DNA of 22,429 nucleotides from positions 1 through 22,429 of IMG/VR virus record IMGVR_UViG_3300044522_000204; one strand, given 5' to 3'. Positions within the stretch are counted from its first letter, which is position 1. Each line of letters begins with the position of its first letter. Both the position numbers and the translations under genes were made by a program. Shown here in pieces: positions 2,653-9,890 of this stretch. This DNA comes from a virus. The notes beneath the pieces were generated by a model, which saw nothing but the letters and a program-made list of their open reading frames with translations, made no database searches and had not been told where the DNA came from.

Positions 2653-3330
2653 ATGGCAATCAATCTAAAAAAGACGGGCGGACTATCCGCCAACGGCGTG
2701 AAGCTGCTCTGCTACGGGCAAGCTGGCGCTGGCAAGACGAGCCTGATCCGCACACTGCCAAACCCGGTGGTGCTGTCGGCAGAGGGTGGGCTACTGTCCA
2801 TCCAAGACGCCAACCTTCCTTACATCGAAATCGCCGACATGGACGATCTCATGGAGGCGTTCGCTTGGTGCAAGTCATCGACTGAAGCGGTTGGTTTCGA
2901 GAGCGTGGCGCTCGACTCCATCAGCGAAGTGGCTGAAGTTGTCCTCCAGCACGAACTGCGTAAGAACAAAGACGGACGCGCTGCATATGGCGAGTTAAAC
3001 ACCACCATGCAGGAGTTGATCCGCGCCTTCCGCGACCTTCCCGGCAAGCACGTTTATATGAGCGCCAAACTGGAAAAGTCGCAGGATGAGATGGGGAAAC
3101 TCCTCTACAATCCGGGGATGCCCGGCAAGTCACTGACGCAGGGCCTGCCATATTTCTTTGATGAGGTGCTGGCGCTTCGGGTCGAGCGTGACGCAGACGG
3201 CGCAACCCAGCGCGCCCTGATGTGTGACGGCGACGGCGCATGGCTCGCCAAAGATCGATCAGGCAAACTTGAGACTTGGGAAGCGCCCGATCTCGGTGCG
3301 ATCATTGCGAAGATTGGCGGTGCAGCATGA
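2653..3330 (+). CDS. Sak4-like AAA/RecA-fold ATPase (recombination mediator)
   Basis: The 225-residue protein has Walker A GQAGAGKT at 22-29 and a Walker B-like segment SVALDS at 84-89. It has the compact RecA core seen in phage Sak4/AAA_24 proteins, which promote single-strand annealing together with a phage ssDNA-binding protein. The C-terminal part carries the PGKSLTQGLPYFFDEVLAL segment common in this family. It opens the rightward early unit behind GAGAGGG, and its stop overlaps the next gene (ATGA). The DUF669-type protein, a Cas4-like exonuclease and an SF2 helicase follow, the usual company of Sak4. A short hairpin (GGCGGA-CTA-TCCGCC, 2677-2691) lies within the first codons. A replication-associated ATPase role is the alternative. 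Confidence 0.8.
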   Translation: MAINLKKTGGLSANGVKLLCYGQAGAGKTSLIRTLPNPVVLSAEGGLLSIQDANLPYIEIADMDDLMEAFAWCKSSTEAVGFESVALDSISEVAEVVLQHELRKNKDGRAAYGELNTTMQELIRAFRDLPGKHVYMSAKLEKSQDEMGKLLYNPGMPGKSLTQGLPYFFDEVLALRVERDADGATQRALMCDGDGAWLAKDRSGKLETWEAPDLGAIIAKIGGAA

Positions 3331-3659
3331 GCGCAGATAGCAAGATTAATAAGGTTACGCATCACCGTGGCAGGCTTTCAAGCAACGCTGATGCAGTATT
3401 GGCGCAGTTAAATGCCGGAAGCACATATGCGGCAATTGCTAAAAAGTTTGGTGTAGCTATTCCATCGGTTTATCACTTTGCAAAGCGCCGGGGCATTACA
3501 CGTAATCCAAAATACGTTGATATTAGTCAAGCAAGCGCGGCGATGCTCCATGAAATTGCTAGGCTTTCGAAGCTGATTTACGCAGCGCAGAGCGCACAAG
3601 TCAAAATCGACGCGCTCAAAACGGCATTGCTGGTCATTGCCAAAGAGGAAGAGGTATGA
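3327..3659 (+). CDS. Helix-turn-helix DNA-binding protein
   Basis: The 110-residue protein has a resolvase- or Hin-like helix-turn-helix around residues 22-55, including STYAAIAKKFGVAIPSVYHF, followed by a helical C-terminal half ending in an acidic tail. I chose the ATG at 3327, which overlaps the previous stop (ATGA). An in-frame upstream ATG at 3276 lies wholly inside the ATPase gene. The stop overlaps the next gene in the same way. The DNA is visibly richer in A and T than its neighbours, with codons such as aaa, att and tta, which hints at separate acquisition. No catalytic domain is attached, so it is probably a regulator or an accessory DNA-binding protein. Its targets are unknown. Confidence 0.7.
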   Translation: MSADSKINKVTHHRGRLSSNADAVLAQLNAGSTYAAIAKKFGVAIPSVYHFAKRRGITRNPKYVDISQASAAMLHEIARLSKLIYAAQSAQVKIDALKTALLVIAKEEEV

Positions 3660-3877
3660 GCGATACATATGGCCCGGCGTTTCCGACAACGCCAGAAAGC
3701 GCCGAACGTCTCGGTTGCACGTTTACGCACGAAGATGTTGGTCTTACAAAGCGCGATTGGTTCGCGGGACAGGCTTTGGTGGGGTTGATTGACCCCGCTT
3801 GGGTGACAGACATTGAACACGCGGCGGAATACGCCTATCGCGTTGCCGACGCTATGCTCATCGAGCGCGCAAAATGA
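3656..3877 (+). CDS. Conserved-type small phage protein, unknown function
   Basis: The 73-residue product has a Thr/Pro-rich N-terminus, a central GLTKRDWFAGQALVGL segment (about residues 29-44) and a C-terminal amphipathic helix, AAEYAYRVADAMLIERA. This arrangement (TKRxWFAGQAL followed by a YAYxxADAM helix) is familiar from small early proteins of many phages, but no function is known to me. It starts with ATG overlapping the previous stop and is followed by another ATGA overlap, so it sits in a tight translational chain with the recombination genes. GAGGAAGAGG upstream supplies the ribosome-binding site. No metal-binding or membrane features are seen. Confidence 0.7.
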   Translation: MSDTYGPAFPTTPESAERLGCTFTHEDVGLTKRDWFAGQALVGLIDPAWVTDIEHAAEYAYRVADAMLIERAK

Positions 3878-4254
3878 CCGTCTCAATCTATCAGCAATGG
3901 CTCAACGCCAAGGCCATCGAGACCGCTGCAATCAAGACCCGGCGTGATCTCGAGGACGCGATGGTTAAGAGCCTTGGCATTGCCGAGAATCTTGATGGCA
4001 CCGTCAACGTTGATGCGGACACTTACAAGGTCAAGATTGAAGGCCGCATTAACCGCAAAATCAACGCTGACAAGCTGCAAGAGTTGGCGGCTGAGAATGG
4101 CTTGACCGAGCATCTCGCAAGCCTGTTCCGGTGGAAGCCGGAAATCAATGCCGCCGCTTGGAAAGCAGCTAAGCCGGAAATCACTTCCCCACTGCTTGAC
4201 GCAATCACGGCCACACCGGGCCGTCCTTCTTTCACCATTACCAACAAGGATTAA
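3874..4254 (+). CDS. Hypothetical phage protein of the recombination cassette
   Basis: The 126-residue protein is soluble and mixed alpha/beta. A helical N-terminal half is followed by a beta-rich middle (TVNVDADTYKVKIEGRINRK, about 43-62). The C-terminal stretch WKPEINAAAWKAAKPEITSP precedes PGRPSFTI at the end. The last motif is familiar from conserved phage proteins encoded next to Sak4 and DUF669 genes. I cannot assign a biochemical role. Its ATG overlaps the preceding stop and it ends only 5 bases before the DUF669-type gene. Constant neighbourhood with an annealing ATPase and a putative ssDNA-binding protein suggests a helper in recombination or replication, which is inference from position. 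Confidence 0.7.
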   Translation: MTVSIYQQWLNAKAIETAAIKTRRDLEDAMVKSLGIAENLDGTVNVDADTYKVKIEGRINRKINADKLQELAAENGLTEHLASLFRWKPEINAAAWKAAKPEITSPLLDAITATPGRPSFTITNKD

Positions 4255-4259
4255 TTGAC

Positions 4260-4778
4260 ATGGCTTTTCTCGAAGAAACTTTCGTTGCCGACGATCTTCC
4301 CCAGTCTGACCGCAGCTACGATCTGCTACCCGAGGGCTGGTATGACGCCACGATCAGCAAGGCCGAAGTTGGCAACACCAAAGCTGGCACCGGCACCAAG
4401 ATCGATGTGCGCTATGACATCACCGGGCCGACCCAGCAGGGGCGGGTCATTTTCGCCAGCCTCAACATTCGCAACCCGAATCCCGAAGCCGAGCGCATTG
4501 GCCGCGAACAGCTTGGCGAATTGATGCGCGCTATCGGCTTGACCAAGGTGCAGGACTCCGACGAACTGATCGGCGGACAGGTCTGCATCAAGGTCAAGAT
4601 CAAGAAGGCATCCGCCAAAGACATCCCTGCTGGATACACGCAAGACCGCAACGAAGTCGGCGGCTGGAAGGCGATCAGCGGATCAATGGCCGCAATGCCG
4701 AAGGCTTCGATGCCGAAGGTCGCCGCAGCACCATCTGCACCAGCCAGCGCAAGCGCCAAGCCGCCTTGGGCTAAGTAA
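4260..4778 (+). CDS. DUF669-type ssDNA-binding candidate
   Basis: The 172-residue protein has the features of phage DUF669 proteins. LPEGWYDATISKAEV (about 23-37) opens a beta-rich core with TGTKIDVRYDITGP and ASLNIRNPNPEAERIGREQL. VCIKVKIKKA (about 108-117) follows, and a flexible Ala/Pro/Ser-rich tail ends in PPWAK. DUF669 proteins are widely suspected to act as ssDNA-binding partners of Sak4-type annealing ATPases. The order here supports that role. The start follows AAGGA about 9 bases upstream. A strong stem-loop lies immediately after the stop and may set the level of this protein relative to the downstream nuclease. Family call is fairly firm; biochemical activity is inferred. Confidence 0.8.
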   Translation: MAFLEETFVADDLPQSDRSYDLLPEGWYDATISKAEVGNTKAGTGTKIDVRYDITGPTQQGRVIFASLNIRNPNPEAERIGREQLGELMRAIGLTKVQDSDELIGGQVCIKVKIKKASAKDIPAGYTQDRNEVGGWKAISGSMAAMPKASMPKVAAAPSAPASASAKPPWAK

Positions 4779-4787
4779 GAGAGTTTT

Positions 4788-4820
4788 CCCCCCGGCCTAC
4801 TGGGGACTTAGGCCGGGGGG
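4788..4820 (+). other. Strong GC-rich intercistronic stem-loop
   Basis: CCCCCCGGCCTA (4788-4799) and TAGGCCGGGGGG (4809-4820) form a perfect 12-bp stem around a 9-base loop. It sits between the DUF669-type gene and the exonuclease gene. No T-run follows on the plus strand; the TTTT lies before the stem. It is therefore not a canonical terminator. A role in mRNA stability, processing or partial attenuation is more likely. Confidence 0.75.
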
Positions 4821-4851
4821 ATGCCTCAACCGCAGCAACGGGAGACTGAGC

Positions 4852-5859
4852 ATGAAACTGCCCGAGCCGATGAATACCATAACAAACCTAATTGACCAAT
4901 ACCACAAAGCGCAAAGCGAGCGACCGCGCCCGCACATGGGTTGCAGCGTCCTTGACCACCCTTGCGACCGCTGGTTGTGGCTGTCATTCCGCTGGGCCGT
5001 GGTGGAAAAGTTTGAAGGCCGCATCCTGCGCCTGTTCCGTCGCGGCCAGAACGAAGAGGAAATCATTGTGCGCGATCTGCGCAATGTCGGCATTGATGTG
5101 CGATCAAGCCAAGCGCGGGTGAACTTCGGTAGCCATGTTTCCGGTAGCCTCGACGGCATCATTGAAAGCGGTGTGCCAGAAGCGCCAAAGAAACGCCACG
5201 TTGCGGAGTTCAAGACGCACTCGAAGAAATCCTTTGACGATATGGTCAATCACGGAGTCGAGAAATCCAAGCCGATGCATTACGTCCAGATGCAAGTCTA
5301 TATGCACGGCACCGACATTGACCGCGCGCTTTATGTGGCGGTCTGCAAAGACGATGACCGGCTCCATATCGAGCGTGTGCGCTACGACGCTGACGTTGCT
5401 ACCAGAGCGGTTGCGCGCGGCCAGCGCATCGCACTAGCGGATCGTATGCCAGAGCCTCTCAGCGGCGATCCTAGCTGGTATCAGTGCCGTTTCTGCGCGG
5501 CGCATAGTTTTTGCCACAAAGCCGCGCCAACTAAACAGGCCAACTGCCGCACTTGCGCGCACAGCACGGCTCTGGCTGACTCTACATGGCGCTGCGAGCG
5601 GCACGACGCCGATAACATCCCGGTTGATTTCCAGCACACCGGTTGCGACGATCACATCATTCACCCCGATCTGGTGCCGTGGCCGATGATCCCGAGCGAT
5701 GATGGGCATTCTGTCATGTGGAAGATCGGCGACCGGGTGATTGAGAATGGAGCCAACGGCTACAAAAGCCGCGAGATACTGGCGAACCCGGACGTTTGCG
5801 GCACCGATGAGGTCGAGGCGATGAAGCGGGTATTTCCTGATGCGGAGGTGGTGGGCTGA
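4852..5859 (+). CDS. Cas4/RecB-like PD-(D/E)xK exonuclease with Cys cluster
   Basis: The 335-residue protein carries a RecB-family nuclease core: GSLDG with Asp101, EFK with Glu119 and Lys121, and a QxxxY motif at Gln146-Tyr150. Cys31 and Cys38 near the N-terminus and Cys212, Cys215 and Cys221 after the core resemble the Fe-S-supporting cysteines of Cas4/AddB nucleases. A further Cys232, Cys235, Cys248 and Cys265 set with a GCDDH end looks like a zinc ribbon. It presumably resects DNA ends to give ssDNA for the Sak4-type annealing ATPase. The ATG at 4852 follows GGGAGA by 7 bases. An in-frame ATG at 4870 is the alternative start. It overlaps the helicase gene by one base. Family level is secure; direction of resection is not visible. 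Confidence 0.82.
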   Translation: MKLPEPMNTITNLIDQYHKAQSERPRPHMGCSVLDHPCDRWLWLSFRWAVVEKFEGRILRLFRRGQNEEEIIVRDLRNVGIDVRSSQARVNFGSHVSGSLDGIIESGVPEAPKKRHVAEFKTHSKKSFDDMVNHGVEKSKPMHYVQMQVYMHGTDIDRALYVAVCKDDDRLHIERVRYDADVATRAVARGQRIALADRMPEPLSGDPSWYQCRFCAAHSFCHKAAPTKQANCRTCAHSTALADSTWRCERHDADNIPVDFQHTGCDDHIIHPDLVPWPMIPSDDGHSVMWKIGDRVIENGANGYKSREILANPDVCGTDEVEAMKRVFPDAEVVG

Positions 5860-7442
5860 TGCTTCGTGACTATCAGCAGCGCACCATCGACCAGCTTTAC
5901 GCTTGGTTCGCGGCAGGCAACGCTGGCAACCCGTGTCTGGTGTTGCCAACCGGCAGCGGCAAGAGTCACATCGTTGCGGCGCTCTGCAAAGACGCCATTC
6001 AAAGCTGGCCCGATACCCGCATATTGATGCTGACCCATGTTCGAGAGCTTATCAGCCAGAATGCCGCCAAGATGCGAGAGCATTGGCCCAACGCGCCGAT
6101 GGGGATTTATTCTGCCGGGTTAAATCGCAAGGTGTTGGGTGAGCCGATCACGTTTGCCGGAATCCAATCGGTGCGGACAAAGGCGCAACAGATCGGTCAT
6201 GTCGATCTCGTCATCATCGACGAATGCCACCTTGTCAGCCACAAAGATGAAGGCGGCTACCGGGTGCTGCTGGCCGATCTGCTCGCCATCAACCCGGCGC
6301 TGCGTGTGGTGGGCCTGACAGCCACGCCTTACAGGCTGGGGCATGGCCTAATCACCGACGCGCCTGCGCTGTTTCACGCCCTGATCGAACCGGTCTCAAT
6401 TGAGGAACTGATCTATAAGGGGCATCTCTCAACGCTCCGTAGCAAGCAGTGTCAAACATCATTTGACACTAGCGGCGTCCACAAACGCGGCGGCGAGTTC
6501 ATCGACAGCGAGTTGCAGGCGGCGGTTGATACCGAAGATAACAATCTAGCCGTTGTCTACGAAGTCATAGGGCGGGCTGGCGACCGCAAGGCATGGTTGT
6601 TCTTCTGCGCTGGCGTCCACCATGCCGAAGCAATCGCGGCGCTGCTAAACCGATATGGAATCGCGGCAGCTTGCGTAACTGGCGCAACACCGAAGGCCGA
6701 GCGCGACAGGATTTTGACGGACTTTAAGTGCGGGAAAATTAGGGCGTTGACCAACGCCAATGTCCTAACCACCGGCTTTGACTATCCCGACATCGACCTG
6801 ATTGCCATGCTGCGCCCGACCATGAGTCCAAGCCTGTATGTCCAGATGGCCGGGCGCGGGATGCGGGTCAAAAGCCACACCGACCATTGTTTAGTGCTGG
6901 ACTTCGCCGGGGTTGTGGCAACGCATGGCCCAATCACCGCCATAGAACCCAGAAAGCGCCGTGGCGAAGGTGATGGCGAAGCGCCGGTCAAGGTCTGCGA
7001 TGCCTGCAATGAATTGGTGCATATCAGCGCCAAGGTTTGCCCGACTTGCGGCGAAGCCTTCCCGGCACCTGAGCCGGTGGAGTTGACGCTGCACCACGAT
7101 GACATCATGGGCGTAGAGGCGGCAGAGATGACCGTGCAAAGCTGGCAATGGAGGCGACACACCAGCCGGGCCAGTGGCAAGGATATGCTGCTAGTGTCCT
7201 ATTATGGTGGCCTGAGTGACCCGGCGGTGTCCGAGTATTTCCCGGTTACGCACGATGGCTATGCTGGCCAGAAGGCGCTGGCGGCAGTGGCCGATATTGC
7301 ACAAAGTGGCGGAGTGGCGTTTAGTGGAGCCATCACGCTTGATGATTGGGCCGACCGGCTCAACGCTGGCGCGACACCCGCGACGATCAATTACCGCCGC
7401 GATGGGAAGTTTTACAGAGTGCTACGGAGGGGATGGGCATGA
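5859..7442 (+). CDS. SF2 DEAD/DEAH-type helicase with C-terminal zinc ribbon
   Basis: The 527-residue protein has the superfamily 2 motifs in order: PTGSGKS at 30-36 (motif I), DECH at 121-124 (II), TATP at 154-157 (III), and QMAGRGMR at 329-336 (VI), preceded by NVLTTGFDYPDID. A CxxC pair at 380/383 and another at 394/397 form a likely zinc ribbon after the helicase core. About 120 residues of unassigned C-terminal domain follow. It resembles phage-encoded Rad25/UvsW-like helicases, probably acting in branch migration, recombination or origin remodelling with the adjacent exonuclease. GGAGGTGG precedes the ATG, which overlaps the upstream stop by one base (TGATG). The next gene overlaps its stop (ATGA). 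Confidence 0.87.
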   Translation: MLRDYQQRTIDQLYAWFAAGNAGNPCLVLPTGSGKSHIVAALCKDAIQSWPDTRILMLTHVRELISQNAAKMREHWPNAPMGIYSAGLNRKVLGEPITFAGIQSVRTKAQQIGHVDLVIIDECHLVSHKDEGGYRVLLADLLAINPALRVVGLTATPYRLGHGLITDAPALFHALIEPVSIEELIYKGHLSTLRSKQCQTSFDTSGVHKRGGEFIDSELQAAVDTEDNNLAVVYEVIGRAGDRKAWLFFCAGVHHAEAIAALLNRYGIAAACVTGATPKAERDRILTDFKCGKIRALTNANVLTTGFDYPDIDLIAMLRPTMSPSLYVQMAGRGMRVKSHTDHCLVLDFAGVVATHGPITAIEPRKRRGEGDGEAPVKVCDACNELVHISAKVCPTCGEAFPAPEPVELTLHHDDIMGVEAAEMTVQSWQWRRHTSRASGKDMLLVSYYGGLSDPAVSEYFPVTHDGYAGQKALAAVADIAQSGGVAFSGAITLDDWADRLNAGATPATINYRRDGKFYRVLRRGWA

Positions 7443-7630
7443 GACCAGACAAGCCAGATTTTCTGATCGAATATGAAAAGTGGGTGCGCGCTGGGCCACC
7501 GCAATGCTGCCACACCTGCGACCACTTCGGAGGTCGTGGCGAGTGTTTCATATTCAACACACACCCGCCAGCCGAGTTCACCAACAGTCAGGGGGAGTGT
7601 GCGGCATGGTCATACGAAGTCCCATTCTGA
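7439..7630 (+). CDS. Small Cys-rich zinc-finger-like protein
   Basis: The 63-residue protein begins at the ATG overlapping the helicase stop, behind a strong GGAGGGG. An in-frame ATG at 7346 lies deep within the helicase gene and was rejected. Cys23-Cys24, Cys27, Cys36 and Cys54 are the likely metal ligands. The pattern CxTCxH, then a Cys, then PP-x-x-F and GEC resembles the second Cys cluster of the exonuclease encoded upstream (CRTCAH ... C ... P-x-x-F-Q ... GC). It may be a free-standing version of that zinc module. Function is unknown; a DNA- or protein-binding accessory is plausible. Its end overlaps the start of the VRR-NUC gene by 25 bases. Confidence 0.75.
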   Translation: MRPDKPDFLIEYEKWVRAGPPQCCHTCDHFGGRGECFIFNTHPPAEFTNSQGECAAWSYEVPF

Positions 7631-7974
7631 AGGCTGCGCTCCCGACAGAGCATGAAGAGCAGCGTGATCTGGTGCGCTGGTTCCGCCGCAAATATGGGCC
7701 GGTGCGTATCTTCGCCATCCCCAATGGCGGCTATCGCTCCATGACCACCGCAGGCAAGCTGAAGGCCGAAGGCGTTAGCGCGGGCATCCCCGATCTGTTC
7801 GTCCCAGCTTGGCGGCTATGGGTCGAAATGAAGCGACAGAAGGGCGGTCGCTTGTCGCCAGAGCAAGCCGACTGGATCGTGTATCTGGAGAGCGTCGGCT
7901 ACACCTGTCTCGTCTGCCCCGGCTCCGAAAATGCACAGGCCCAGATCGATGCATTCGTTGCTGCGCAGAAATAA
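7606..7974 (+). CDS. VRR-NUC family nuclease
   Basis: The 122-residue protein is a minimal VRR-NUC domain of the PD-(D/E)xK fold. HEEQRDLVRWF (about 16-26) forms the first helix. IPNGGYRS (38-45) and GIPDLF with Asp63 precede VEMKRQKGGRLSPEQADW, with Glu74 and Lys76 as catalytic residues. Such stand-alone phage proteins probably cleave branched or flap DNA structures. The ATG at 7606 follows GGGGAG at good spacing. An upstream in-frame ATG at 7480 would add 42 residues that read as an out-of-frame copy of the previous gene. Placement after the exonuclease and helicase suggests Holliday-junction or replication-fork processing, which is inference. Confidence 0.85.
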   Translation: MVIRSPILKAALPTEHEEQRDLVRWFRRKYGPVRIFAIPNGGYRSMTTAGKLKAEGVSAGIPDLFVPAWRLWVEMKRQKGGRLSPEQADWIVYLESVGYTCLVCPGSENAQAQIDAFVAAQK

Positions 7975-8025
7975 TGCGTCTTGTGCATTTTTGCTATTTA
8001 CAAGGTGCGAGAATGCTAATAGGAC

Positions 8026-8072
8026 TGTCTCAACAGCAACGGGGCAGCGCCCCACCACACGGGAGACACCAG
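8026..8072 (+). promoter_or_regulatory. Leader sharing sequence with the exonuclease leader
   Basis: The 98-bp gap after the VRR-NUC gene ends in a leader with CTCAAC, AGCAACGGG and GGGAGAC. The same blocks in the same order lie at 4823-4848 before the exonuclease gene. Here they are separated by an 18-base insertion that includes a small GGGGC-AGC-GCCCC hairpin (8041-8053). The last block holds the ribosome-binding site. ATTTACAAGG at 7996-8005 resembles the divergent-region dyad arm but no good promoter pair is seen. Confidence 0.4.
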
Positions 8073-8285
8073 ATGCCATTCGCCGATTACACCATGACTT
8101 TTGAAACGATGAGCGAAGCAATTGCTTGCTACGATCTCAAGCGTCTCCCGGTTCAGGGCCAGTCGTATTATGCCGGCACTCGCTTTGCTGATGACGGTCG
8201 CAAGATTCGCGTCTTTGCTCGCAAGCATCACGGCAACGTCGCTCGCTTCACTTTTTCCGAGCGCATGGAGGATTATTCAGCATGA
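8073..8285 (+). CDS. Hypothetical protein, 70 residues
   Basis: I chose the ATG at 8073, preceded by GGGAG at good spacing. An in-frame ATG at 8013 would add 20 low-complexity residues encoded by the leader. The product starts MPFADYTMTFETMSEAI and has a beta-rich, basic C-terminal half (KIRVFARKHHGNVARFTFSE) that could bind nucleic acid. I recognise no family. Its stop overlaps the start of a small membrane protein gene (ATGA). Good codon usage and conserved-looking junctions support coding. It opens the stretch of small early genes. Confidence 0.6.
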   Translation: MPFADYTMTFETMSEAIACYDLKRLPVQGQSYYAGTRFADDGRKIRVFARKHHGNVARFTFSERMEDYSA

Positions 8286-8425
8286 CCCGCTACATCACCA
8301 TCGCCGCGCTGATAGAGCGCGACCGCCGCAATCGCCGCGTTGCCCGTGTAGCCGCCACCGTGGCCGCTGCTGGCCTTGCGCTGGCGATCATCGCCCTGCC
8401 AATCGGTTGGATGCTGACATGGTAG
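8282..8425 (+). CDS. Small one-TM membrane protein, 47 residues
   Basis: Starting from an ATG that overlaps the previous stop, this frame encodes a basic N-terminal segment (IERDRRNRRVAR, about 11-22). One hydrophobic helix rich in Ala, Leu, Ile and Val (about 23-46) follows, ending MLTW. The positive-inside rule predicts a cytoplasmic N-terminus. The frame overlaps the next small membrane gene by 7 bases. It is too short for family assignment. Its place in the early region, far from the lysis genes, argues against a holin and for a host-takeover or superinfection-exclusion role, which is inference. Confidence 0.55.
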   Translation: MTRYITIAALIERDRRNRRVARVAATVAAAGLALAIIALPIGWMLTW

Positions 8426-8538
8426 ACCCAGAGCGCCCCGGCAAGCGCCACCTTAGCTGGCGGCAGTCCGTCGTCGTGATCGTGCTGGCTATCATCGTTG
8501 CGCTGGCACCGTGGCTATCCGCCATCCCGTATAGATAG
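8419..8538 (+). CDS. Small one-TM membrane protein, 39 residues
   Basis: The ATG lies inside the end of the preceding membrane-protein gene (7-base overlap). The product has a charged N-terminus (MVDPERPGKRHLSWRQ) and one strongly hydrophobic helix (about 17-34, SVVVIVLAIIVALAPWL), with a short external end. Its frame is open further upstream, but that part is the shadow of the 8073 gene. With its overlapping partner it forms a pair of tiny single-pass proteins that may act together. No spanin-type lipobox is present. Confidence 0.5.
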   Translation: MVDPERPGKRHLSWRQSVVVIVLAIIVALAPWLSAIPYR

Positions 8539-8548
8539 GAGCAGCCCA

Positions 8549-8734
8549 ATGACTTATCTGCAAAAATTGAGGGCCGCGTACAATGCCGCCCGCGCCTCCA
8601 CCGCACGGGACGATTACGACGCCGTTCTTGACCTTGCCTACGACGCCTTCAGCGCCGCCTACGTTGCCTACAGCGCCGCCGACGCCGCCCGCGCCGCCCT
8701 CGCAGCGCAAGAGCAGGAGCAGACCGATGACTGA
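8549..8734 (+). CDS. Alanine-rich helical paralogue 1
   Basis: The 61-residue product starts MTYLQKLRAAYNAARAS and is dominated by Ala with regularly spaced Tyr, Asp and Val (YDAVLDLAYDAFSAAY), ending LAAQEQEQTDD. It is predicted to be one long amphipathic helix or helical hairpin. I chose the ATG at 8549 behind AGGAG; upstream in-frame codons belong to the preceding gene's shadow. The N-terminal MT-x-L-x-x-L-x-A and C-terminal AAQ-x-x-x-x-TD patterns recur in the next two genes. The three are therefore tandem paralogues. Function is unknown. Coiled-coil assembly or binding of a host helix bundle is possible. Confidence 0.65.
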   Translation: MTYLQKLRAAYNAARASTARDDYDAVLDLAYDAFSAAYVAYSAADAARAALAAQEQEQTDD

Positions 8735-8939
8735 CTTGGAGAGACTGAAGGCCGACCGAGATGCCTGCGGCGCTGCATGGGACGCCGCGCTCGACGCTGT
8801 CTCTGCATCGCGCGCCGCACGGGACGCCTGCGAAGCCGCCGACACCGCCCGACTCGCAGCCCACCGCGCCGCCAACCACGCTGCATGTTACGCCTACCTC
8901 GCCGCCATCGCAGCGCAAGAGAGGGAGACTGACCAATGA
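8727..8939 (+). CDS. Alanine-rich helical paralogue 2
   Basis: The 70-residue product begins MTDLERLKADRDACGAAWDA and ends AAIAAQERETDQ. Between lie Ala-rich repeats with Asp, Arg, His and aromatic residues at regular spacing and three Cys residues. Its ATG overlaps the stop of paralogue 1 by 8 bases, and AGGAG lies upstream. The DNA segment CGCAGCGCAAG at the end of each paralogue stands 26-27 bases before the next ATG. This marks the array as a tandem duplication. It is longer than its sisters, mainly through extra Ala-rich repeats. Function unknown. Confidence 0.65.
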   Translation: MTDLERLKADRDACGAAWDAALDAVSASRAARDACEAADTARLAAHRAANHAACYAYLAAIAAQERETDQ

Positions 8940-9085
8940 CTGAGATCGAGAAACTGACGGCCGCACGGGACGCCGCCGTGGCCGCATGGTACGCCGCCCT
9001 TGACGCCTACAACGCCGCGCTTGACGCTGCTAACGACGCCTACCGCGACGCACTCGCAGCGCAAGCTAAGGAAACTGACCAATGA
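8936..9085 (+). CDS. Alanine-rich helical paralogue 3
   Basis: This 49-residue product starts MTEIEKLTAARDAAVAAWYA and ends LAAQAKETDQ. The middle is a clean amphipathic repeat (ALDAYNAALDAANDAYRDAL). The ATG overlaps paralogue 2's stop (ATGA) behind GGGAG. It is the shortest and most regular member, so it may be closest to the basic repeat unit. After its CGCAGCGCAAG linker another ATG appears at 9082 at the expected distance, but no paralogue follows. Function unknown. Confidence 0.62.
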   Translation: MTEIEKLTAARDAAVAAWYAALDAYNAALDAANDAYRDALAAQAKETDQ

Positions 9086-9094
9086 GTAAACCAC

Positions 9095-9313
9095 ATGGCC
9101 AAGCGCATCATGGACTACGAGATCGACCCGCTATTCAGGACGCCGGGGCTGCCTCGCATCCTGCGATTGCGACAGATCAGGGAGCAGACCTACATGACCC
9201 CCGCCGAGCGGCGCGAATTGAAGCGGCTGGAGGAAACGCAGCAAAACATCGAGTTCCTGTATCACCGGGGGAAACGTCGAGCCGCCCGAAGAAAGCAGAA
9301 CACGGAGTCCTAA
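9095..9313 (+). CDS. Basic helical hypothetical protein, 72 residues
   Basis: The frame from ATG 9095 has the codon pattern of its neighbours, with G or C at most third positions. It encodes a helical, Arg-rich protein (IDPLFRTPGLPRILRLRQ; TPAERRELKRLEETQQNIEF; ending RGKRRAARRKQNTES). The C-terminal basic tail suggests nucleic-acid binding. The competing frame from ATG 9082 has a better ribosome-binding site (AAGGA) but poor codon use over this stretch. Translation here may depend on coupling to paralogue 3, whose stop is 9 bases upstream. No family recognised. Confidence 0.6.
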   Translation: MAKRIMDYEIDPLFRTPGLPRILRLRQIREQTYMTPAERRELKRLEETQQNIEFLYHRGKRRAARRKQNTES

Positions 9314-9381
9314 CCGCAGCGCCGCGTCTTTTACAGGGACGCACTGCCAAAGGTGAGGCCCAACAGTCGCACCGGGTTCGA

Positions 9382-9699
9382 GTGGCTGACGCATACCTGA
9401 CCGGAAACAACACGGTCGCAGAGTTGGCCGTGGAACATGGCGTCTCAGTCTTTACGATCCGCGATTGGATTCGAGACCGCCGCGATACGTTCATGCTTGA
9501 CCACCGCAAGCGCCCGCTGGGGACACGCCGCGACCGAGCGCATGAGCCTAATCTAGTGGTTGGCGTCTACGGCACAGGCGGCACCATGACCGACGAATCT
9601 GTGCGACGGGCGACCCGCGATCTTGAAAAGGCCATTGTGGCAGGATTGGCAGCGCGCGGTCTTGCTCCGCTGCCGTATCGTAGGGAGGTTGCACAATGA
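9382..9699 (+). CDS. Helix-turn-helix protein (start uncertain)
   Basis: The protein has a clear helix-turn-helix: VADAYLTG, then TVAELAVEHG, then SVFTIRDWIRDRR, as in transposase- or sigma-like small DNA-binding domains. A basic linker and a C-terminal helix (SVRRATRDLEKAIVAGLAARG) follow. Between the end of the 72-residue gene and the HTH, the only usual start codon in frame is GTG 9382, which gives 105 residues but has a weak ribosome-binding site. The alternatives are ATG 9082, which would prefix 100 residues, most of them an out-of-frame reading of the previous gene, or a -1 frameshift from that gene. The stop overlaps the next ATG. Probably a regulator; target unknown. Confidence 0.55.
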   Translation: MADAYLTGNNTVAELAVEHGVSVFTIRDWIRDRRDTFMLDHRKRPLGTRRDRAHEPNLVVGVYGTGGTMTDESVRRATRDLEKAIVAGLAARGLAPLPYRREVAQ

Positions 9700-9890
9700 C
9701 ACGCGAAGTCGAAATATTGCATCGCAGCGCAATAGCCTTAGCGGCTATGGAAGCTGCCAAGCGCGCGTTTAAGGCCGCTGAGATTGAAGTTGTCCGTCTA
9801 TGCCGTGAATACGAACAGGCCAACGGCGCGCGTGGTCTAGCACCGCATCATCTGGCACAAAGCTGCCGAGCAAGGGGAATTGAGATATGA
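9696..9890 (+). CDS. Small helical hypothetical protein, 64 residues
   Basis: The ATG overlaps the HTH gene's stop (ATGA) and follows a good AGGGAGG. The product is almost wholly helical, with an Ala-rich amphipathic N-terminal half (SAIALAAMEAAKRAFKAAEI) and a basic end (HHLAQSCRARGIEI). Two Cys residues are too far apart for a finger. No family is recognised. It may be a coiled-coil partner of a neighbouring early protein. Its stop overlaps the RMF-like gene. Confidence 0.6.
   Translation: MTREVEILHRSAIALAAMEAAKRAFKAAEIEVVRLCREYEQANGARGLAPHHLAQSCRARGIEI

Follow-up and report, generated by a model that had tools for sequence, protein, structure and literature searches.

T4-type phages reportedly carry mobile regulatory cassettes, the PeSL elements of Arbiol et al. 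2010, which are said to be promoter plus stem-loop units placed between genes. The locus analyzed here, in a 22,429-nt stretch of viral DNA (IMG/VR record IMGVR_UViG_3300044522_000204; hereafter the window), likewise presents a repeated element permitting the shuffling of small accessory genes, but in contrast to the intergenic PeSLs this element is coding and translational, and no promoter- or terminator-like match was found on the + strand between positions 7900 and 10500. As in integrons (see PMC11023631), exchangeable small genes are arrayed between conserved sites; unlike in integrons, the genes are translationally coupled and their exchange appears to be homologous. No integrase was detected among the ten window proteins scanned.

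The mechanism proposed below resembles exchange at boundary sequences in lambdoid phages, a proposal cited in PMC3029335; according to the same source, such sequences were not found at most mosaic boundaries. The lambdoid nin genes are tightly packed, with ATGA overlaps (PMC8022706). The locus differs from these systems in that a single joint of ~30 nt, together with the codons that follow it, is repeated at almost all junctions. This joint mostly connects paralogous heptad-repeat ORFs whose number changes, encodes a Shine-Dalgarno sequence within the tail of the preceding gene, and is shared by a T4-like phage and by phages whose terminases are unrelated. Searches of PHROGs and Pfam returned no convincing match that would relate its genes to those of the nin region. 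Phage-coded annealing proteins are known to recombine short, diverged homologies and to drive mosaicism (De Paepe et al. 2014, PMC3945230); that study tested Rad52-like proteins in lambda-like phages and does not mention Sak4, and the relaxed recombination it describes has no defined joint array, unlike the situation here. We found no description of such an array in open-licence papers. Judged by its sequence, the array may be a new version of boundary-sequence exchange, and we propose, with a probability of roughly 0.68, that homologous recombination reshuffles it at joints that are both coding and translationally coupled.

A three-gene array and its joints

The window is a linear virus record of 22.4 kb. 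Its left and middle parts encode a primase, a Sak4-like annealing protein, SSB, a Cas4/RecE-like exonuclease, a helicase and a nuclease, and its right side carries structural genes, including one for a DNA-ejection protein. The array is located toward the end of the rightward genes, among the following features:

2653..3330, + strand: Sak4-like ssDNA annealing protein (PHROG 124, E 1e-54), a candidate helper of recombination at the joints
4852..5859, + strand: Cas4/RecE-like exonuclease (PHROG 1990, E 1e-95), also a candidate helper of recombination at the joints
8419..8538, + strand: upstream flank gene, 39-aa protein with one hydrophobic segment (MVDPERPGKRHLSWRQSVVVIVLAIIVALAPWLSAIPYR), judged by eye
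8549..8734, + strand: cassette 1, MTYLQKL...AAQEQEQTDD, 61-aa Ala-rich heptad-repeat protein
8701..8734, + strand: joint 1, 8-nt overlap type, with AAQEQEQTDD tail codons, Shine-Dalgarno-like AGGAG and next start ATGACTGA
8727..8939, + strand: cassette 2, MTDLERL...AAQERETDQ, 70 aa, Ala-rich, single helix predicted
8909..8939, + strand: joint 2, 4-nt ATGA overlap type, with AAQERETDQ, GGGAG and ATGACTGA
8936..9085, + strand: cassette 3, MTEIEKL...AAQAKETDQ, 49 aa, Ala-rich, helix predicted over residues 3-48
9055..9085, + strand: joint 3 (terminal), with AAQAKETDQ, AAGGAA and ATGAGTAA, leading to the downstream gene
9095..9313, + strand: downstream flank gene MAKRIMDYE..., 72 aa, which bounds the array in array-carrying loci

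The three Ala-rich ORFs with shared ends had been noted in the initial annotation and are confirmed, as is the motif placed 26, 27 and 27 nt before an ATG: the window holds exactly three copies of CGCAGCGCAAG (starting at 8701, 8909 and 9055; 0.09 copies expected in shuffles, with 0 of 100 shuffles reaching three), placed at those distances from the ATGs at 8727, 8936 and 9082. The third copy does precede an ATG, at 9082, but it is at 9095 that the conserved gene downstream begins. Adjoining ORFs overlap by 8 nt (ATGACTGA) and then by 4 nt (ATGA), and the idea that the linker combines protein tail, ribosome-binding site and next start in one unit is supported. The upstream flank gene stops within TAGGAGCAGCCCA, the ribosome-binding site of cassette 1, and its relatives (49-100% identity) precede the array in most array-bearing contigs. 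TRF identified 21-nt (7-codon) periods inside the cores, and cassette 2, used as query against its own record, matched only itself and cassette 3. Downstream, the ORFs at 9082-9699 and 9095-9313 overlap in different frames; substitutions between relatives in 9095-9313 are spread evenly over codon positions, a pattern consistent with coding in both frames or with an error in the annotation.

These elements are part of a much larger family extending beyond the window, in which the terminal joint of most other arrays ends ETPNE, as against AAQAKETDQ here. Throughout, LAAQ is almost always written CTC GCA GCG CAA, with fixed tail codons (GCA in 46/47, GCG in 43/47 and CAA in 46/47), while 68% of Ala codons in the cores are GCC. 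Overlaps of 4 or 8 nt, including overlapping ATGA stop/start codons, are present at most junctions, and DNA-level conservation extends into the first 8-10 codons of the following gene. There are two spacing classes of joint, and some cassettes have none; a joint profile aligned on the ATG mixes both classes and understates conservation, and an ungapped comparison of tails between classes is confounded by a one-base offset and was not used.

The joint is also attached to cores that bear no detectable resemblance to the Ala-rich type, a departure from the initial view of tandem paralogues. Such cores include MATDFEIWQ... (L089, with a variant VAQ tail), MQSDAVG... (L008, L209), ...IVADLRAMSALYSTG... 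(L089, L096, L181) and RERAAIVAWLRDD... (L015), besides the fused cores beginning MTDDLREAV... (L201, L204). At L092:4357-4596 the joint DNA is read in another frame, with the ribosome-binding site and next ATG retained, and in L105 the upstream TAGGAGCAGCCCA has moved with the first cassette of the window and is read through as PLGAAQ. Together, unrelated cores, out-of-frame reading and read-through argue that it is the DNA of the joint, rather than a peptide tail, that is conserved.

Conservation of this kind could alternatively arise if the joint were kept only as a translation-coupling signal and recombination were ordinary and untargeted, with joints standing out as breakpoints since a break anywhere else would inactivate a gene. 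AGGAG-type sequences with ATGA or ATGACTGA overlaps at nearly every junction, and the ATGA overlaps shared by lambdoid nin genes (PMC8022706), fit this explanation; coupling, however, should not need CTCGCAGCGCAA, which lies 5' of the Shine-Dalgarno sequence and is fixed in otherwise uncommon codons, nor does coupling sit easily with the DNA-level conservation of the next gene's first codons, and we consider this explanation unlikely.

Turnover of the array and exchange between phages

Viral contigs were scanned seven times and genome contigs twice, yielding about 20 distinct arrays, most of them located between a hydrophobic-segment gene of the 8419-8538 type and a MAKRIMDYE gene of the 9095-9313 type; the latter gene served to retrieve 26 loci. 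No array was detected in two scans covering 84,980 bacterial and archaeal genomes; the sole pattern match, in a Hirschia MAG, lies ahead of a gene read as cas7 from its sequence and is not an array. Several viral contigs matched a shorter joint pattern (L186, L190, L191, L192, L195, L197, L199, L200 and L202), but these matches fall within other genes, lack the tail and were set aside.

The number of cassettes ranges from one (L010, L015, L091, L181) through two, three, four and five to a maximum of eight (L209/L214), the counts for L014 and others at contig ends being minimal. L018 presents both flank genes and no cassette, and backbone relatives without cassettes (L016, L018, L036, L060 and L062) suggest that the array is dispensable. 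The initial annotation had expected copy number and length to vary between relatives, and constancy was not what we observed: copy number spans 0-8, there are 29 distinct in-frame core lengths, and content differs. Its claim that diversification is fast stands at moderate distance only. Two contigs that are 97.6% identical over 4 kb downstream (L008 and L090) have four and two cassettes, respectively, and window-type relatives at 90-93% identity have one or two, but the closest relative (L004, 99.8% backbone identity) has the same number as the window. Differences between these two closest sequences concentrate in a single segment:

8904..8958, + strand: SNP tract holding 10 of 11 window-versus-L004 differences and spanning joint 2

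This tract covers 55 of 5127 nt (clustering p about 1e-14), and within it L004 resembles L005, as in an exchange tract at a boundary, here represented by one event only. Separately, comparison of L011 with window positions 3656-9181 revealed an identical array and 124 differences clustered at about 3.5-7 kb, a contrast that marks a mosaic backbone in these sequences.

All 52 cores giving any match had their best match in another phage and none within their own array, with the near-identical window and L004 arrays not compared with each other. This result indicates that arrays are assembled by exchange rather than by local duplication; it rules out local tandem duplication and runs against the earlier notion of a self-propagating unit, since on these alignments the unit spreads between phages rather than by copying in place. 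The core of cassette 1, first in the window array, recurs as the last core in L105 (4810-4995; 94% DNA identity over 117 nt), accompanied by its ribosome-binding site TAGGAGCAGCCCA. The cores of cassettes 2 and 3 are, respectively, 98.6% identical to L005:4789 and identical to L005:4998 over 81 nt. Near-identical cores also link phages whose backbones are unrelated: that of L014:5091, in a window-type phage, is identical over 138 nt to L209:3396, and L006:3519 is 97% identical to L106:3352 over 78 nt. Such pairs point to recent traffic between these phages, from which a shared host would follow naturally.

Array-bearing contigs comprise at least four terminase groups without significant mutual similarity (the window's own type, L222/L223, L224 and L225/L227), and most carriers have no homologue of the window's helicase and Sak4. 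One carrier, G001 (behind L006/L007), is T4-like, with genes for a T4-type (gp43-type) polymerase, at best about 50% identical to cyanophage polymerases, a gp44-type clamp loader, UvsX, a gp46-like protein and a replicative helicase. Four contigs related to it (L194, L201, L204 and L205) have arrays at the corresponding place, making an assembly artefact unlikely.

Further genes occur in or near these arrays. The hydrophobic-protein gene lies beside the array in the window, and in T4-like carriers a 39-aa protein with a hydrophobic segment (MTKLELLKLAAM...) is encoded between cassettes (L201:2957-3076 and L006:3791-3910). An ArdC-type anti-restriction gene (L209:1102-1968) was found about 1.4 kb upstream of the eight-cassette array, and near that array only. 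In the T4-like phage, the cassette at L006:3972-4130 consists of a standard head (MTDLERLKAELEAAHAD) joined to the C-terminal portion of the helix-turn-helix gene that the window has downstream of its array (positions 9578-9736; 86% DNA identity), so that fragments of flank genes travel too.

Coding capacity and nature of the products

Head and tail share a frame in 46 of the 47 cassettes with an intact joint, over 29 distinct core lengths. Among near-orthologous cores (≥94% identical), changes at codon positions 1/2/3 number 8/6/19 (p = 0.004, to be read with the identity split having been made after the pooled test). The pooled counts for all 15 independent pairs showed no bias (32/35/37), and neither did the more diverged cores (17/25/20). 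Frame keeping and the third-position excess in near-orthologues argue that the cassettes are translated, while the lack of such an excess in diverged cores, unlike in the helicase (17/4/86 between the window and L009), points to weak constraint at the protein level; diverged cores may be loosely constrained or diversifying.

A largely neutral array, in which slippage in 21-nt repeats and unequal crossing over make and lose useless Ala-rich ORFs, would account for its dispensability, for the low-complexity cores with 21-nt periods and for the weak codon-position bias of diverged cores. It would not predict 46/47 joints in frame, a third-position excess in near-orthologues, arrays in several unrelated phages, a T4-like one included, or the absence of any core with its best match inside the same array, and is in our view distinctly improbable.

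Cassettes 2 and 3 were modeled as single helices (AlphaFold2, single chains; pLDDT 96), hydrophobic residues recur with a 3.5-residue, heptad periodicity, and the proteins are acidic (mean net charge -5, pI 4.4). On these models the products are likely coiled coils. Pfam and PHROGs gave no convincing family match for the cassettes, the L015 core matching an uncharacterized family over 20 residues (E 0.003). A sequence search of the PDB with the cassettes returned nothing, and a single helix matches everything in structure libraries. Neither the locus nor cassette 2 had a BLAST match among cultured phages, an outcome to which low-complexity filtering may contribute. The location of the array toward the end of the rightward genes is consistent, as are its dispensability, diversity and exchange, with an accessory, changing set of early host-takeover or counter-defence proteins, a role that we advance tentatively. 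A membrane role shared with the neighboring single-pass protein, for instance in superinfection exclusion or lysis control, where variation would serve to distinguish phages, is very improbable. In its favor, a small hydrophobic-segment gene flanks most arrays and another one lies between cassettes in T4-like carriers; against it, the Ala-rich products are acidic with charged residues throughout, L018 retains the flank genes without cassettes and no known membrane family was matched.

Proposed exchange of cassettes at fixed joints

According to the reading we prefer, reshuffling by homologous recombination at the joints, each cassette is a small ORF whose last codons (LAAQ and an E/Q/K-rich tail) also encode a Shine-Dalgarno sequence and whose tail overlaps the start codon of the next ORF. 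Since the DNA of the joint and of the codons just after it hardly varies from one junction to another, any cassette could be joined to any other, and such joining would keep reading frame, ribosome-binding site and translational coupling. Phages in the same cell would swap cassettes through homologous recombination, both at the joints and within the repetitive Ala-rich cores, with probable help from phage recombinases (in the window Sak4, SSB and the Cas4/RecE-like exonuclease, in the T4-like phage UvsX). Most products would be acidic, Ala-rich proteins predicted to form single long helices with heptad periodicity, likely coiled coils, and unrelated small ORFs would be captured in the same cassette format. 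It is conceivable, although we hold it at less than even odds, that podovirus-like, T4-like and other phages of one host exchange cassettes in this way without an integrase, building private arrays from a shared pool of standard-format ORFs with a conserved head and a coding, ribosome-binding tail.

A long-standing question is whether the mosaicism of phages originates at conserved boundary sequences or through random breakage. Here the boundary is clear and repeated: it accompanies unrelated cores, persists where it is read in another frame and coincides with a tract of recent exchange, which makes the boundary proposal directly testable. The locus illustrates concretely how fixed joints may allow phages to reshuffle small genes, and reveals recent small-gene traffic between phages with otherwise unrelated genomes, a T4-like one included; the joint DNA could also serve as bait for accessory phage genes in metagenomes. 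If the proposed exchange is correct, a whole phage community would be sampling combinations of helical effector proteins.
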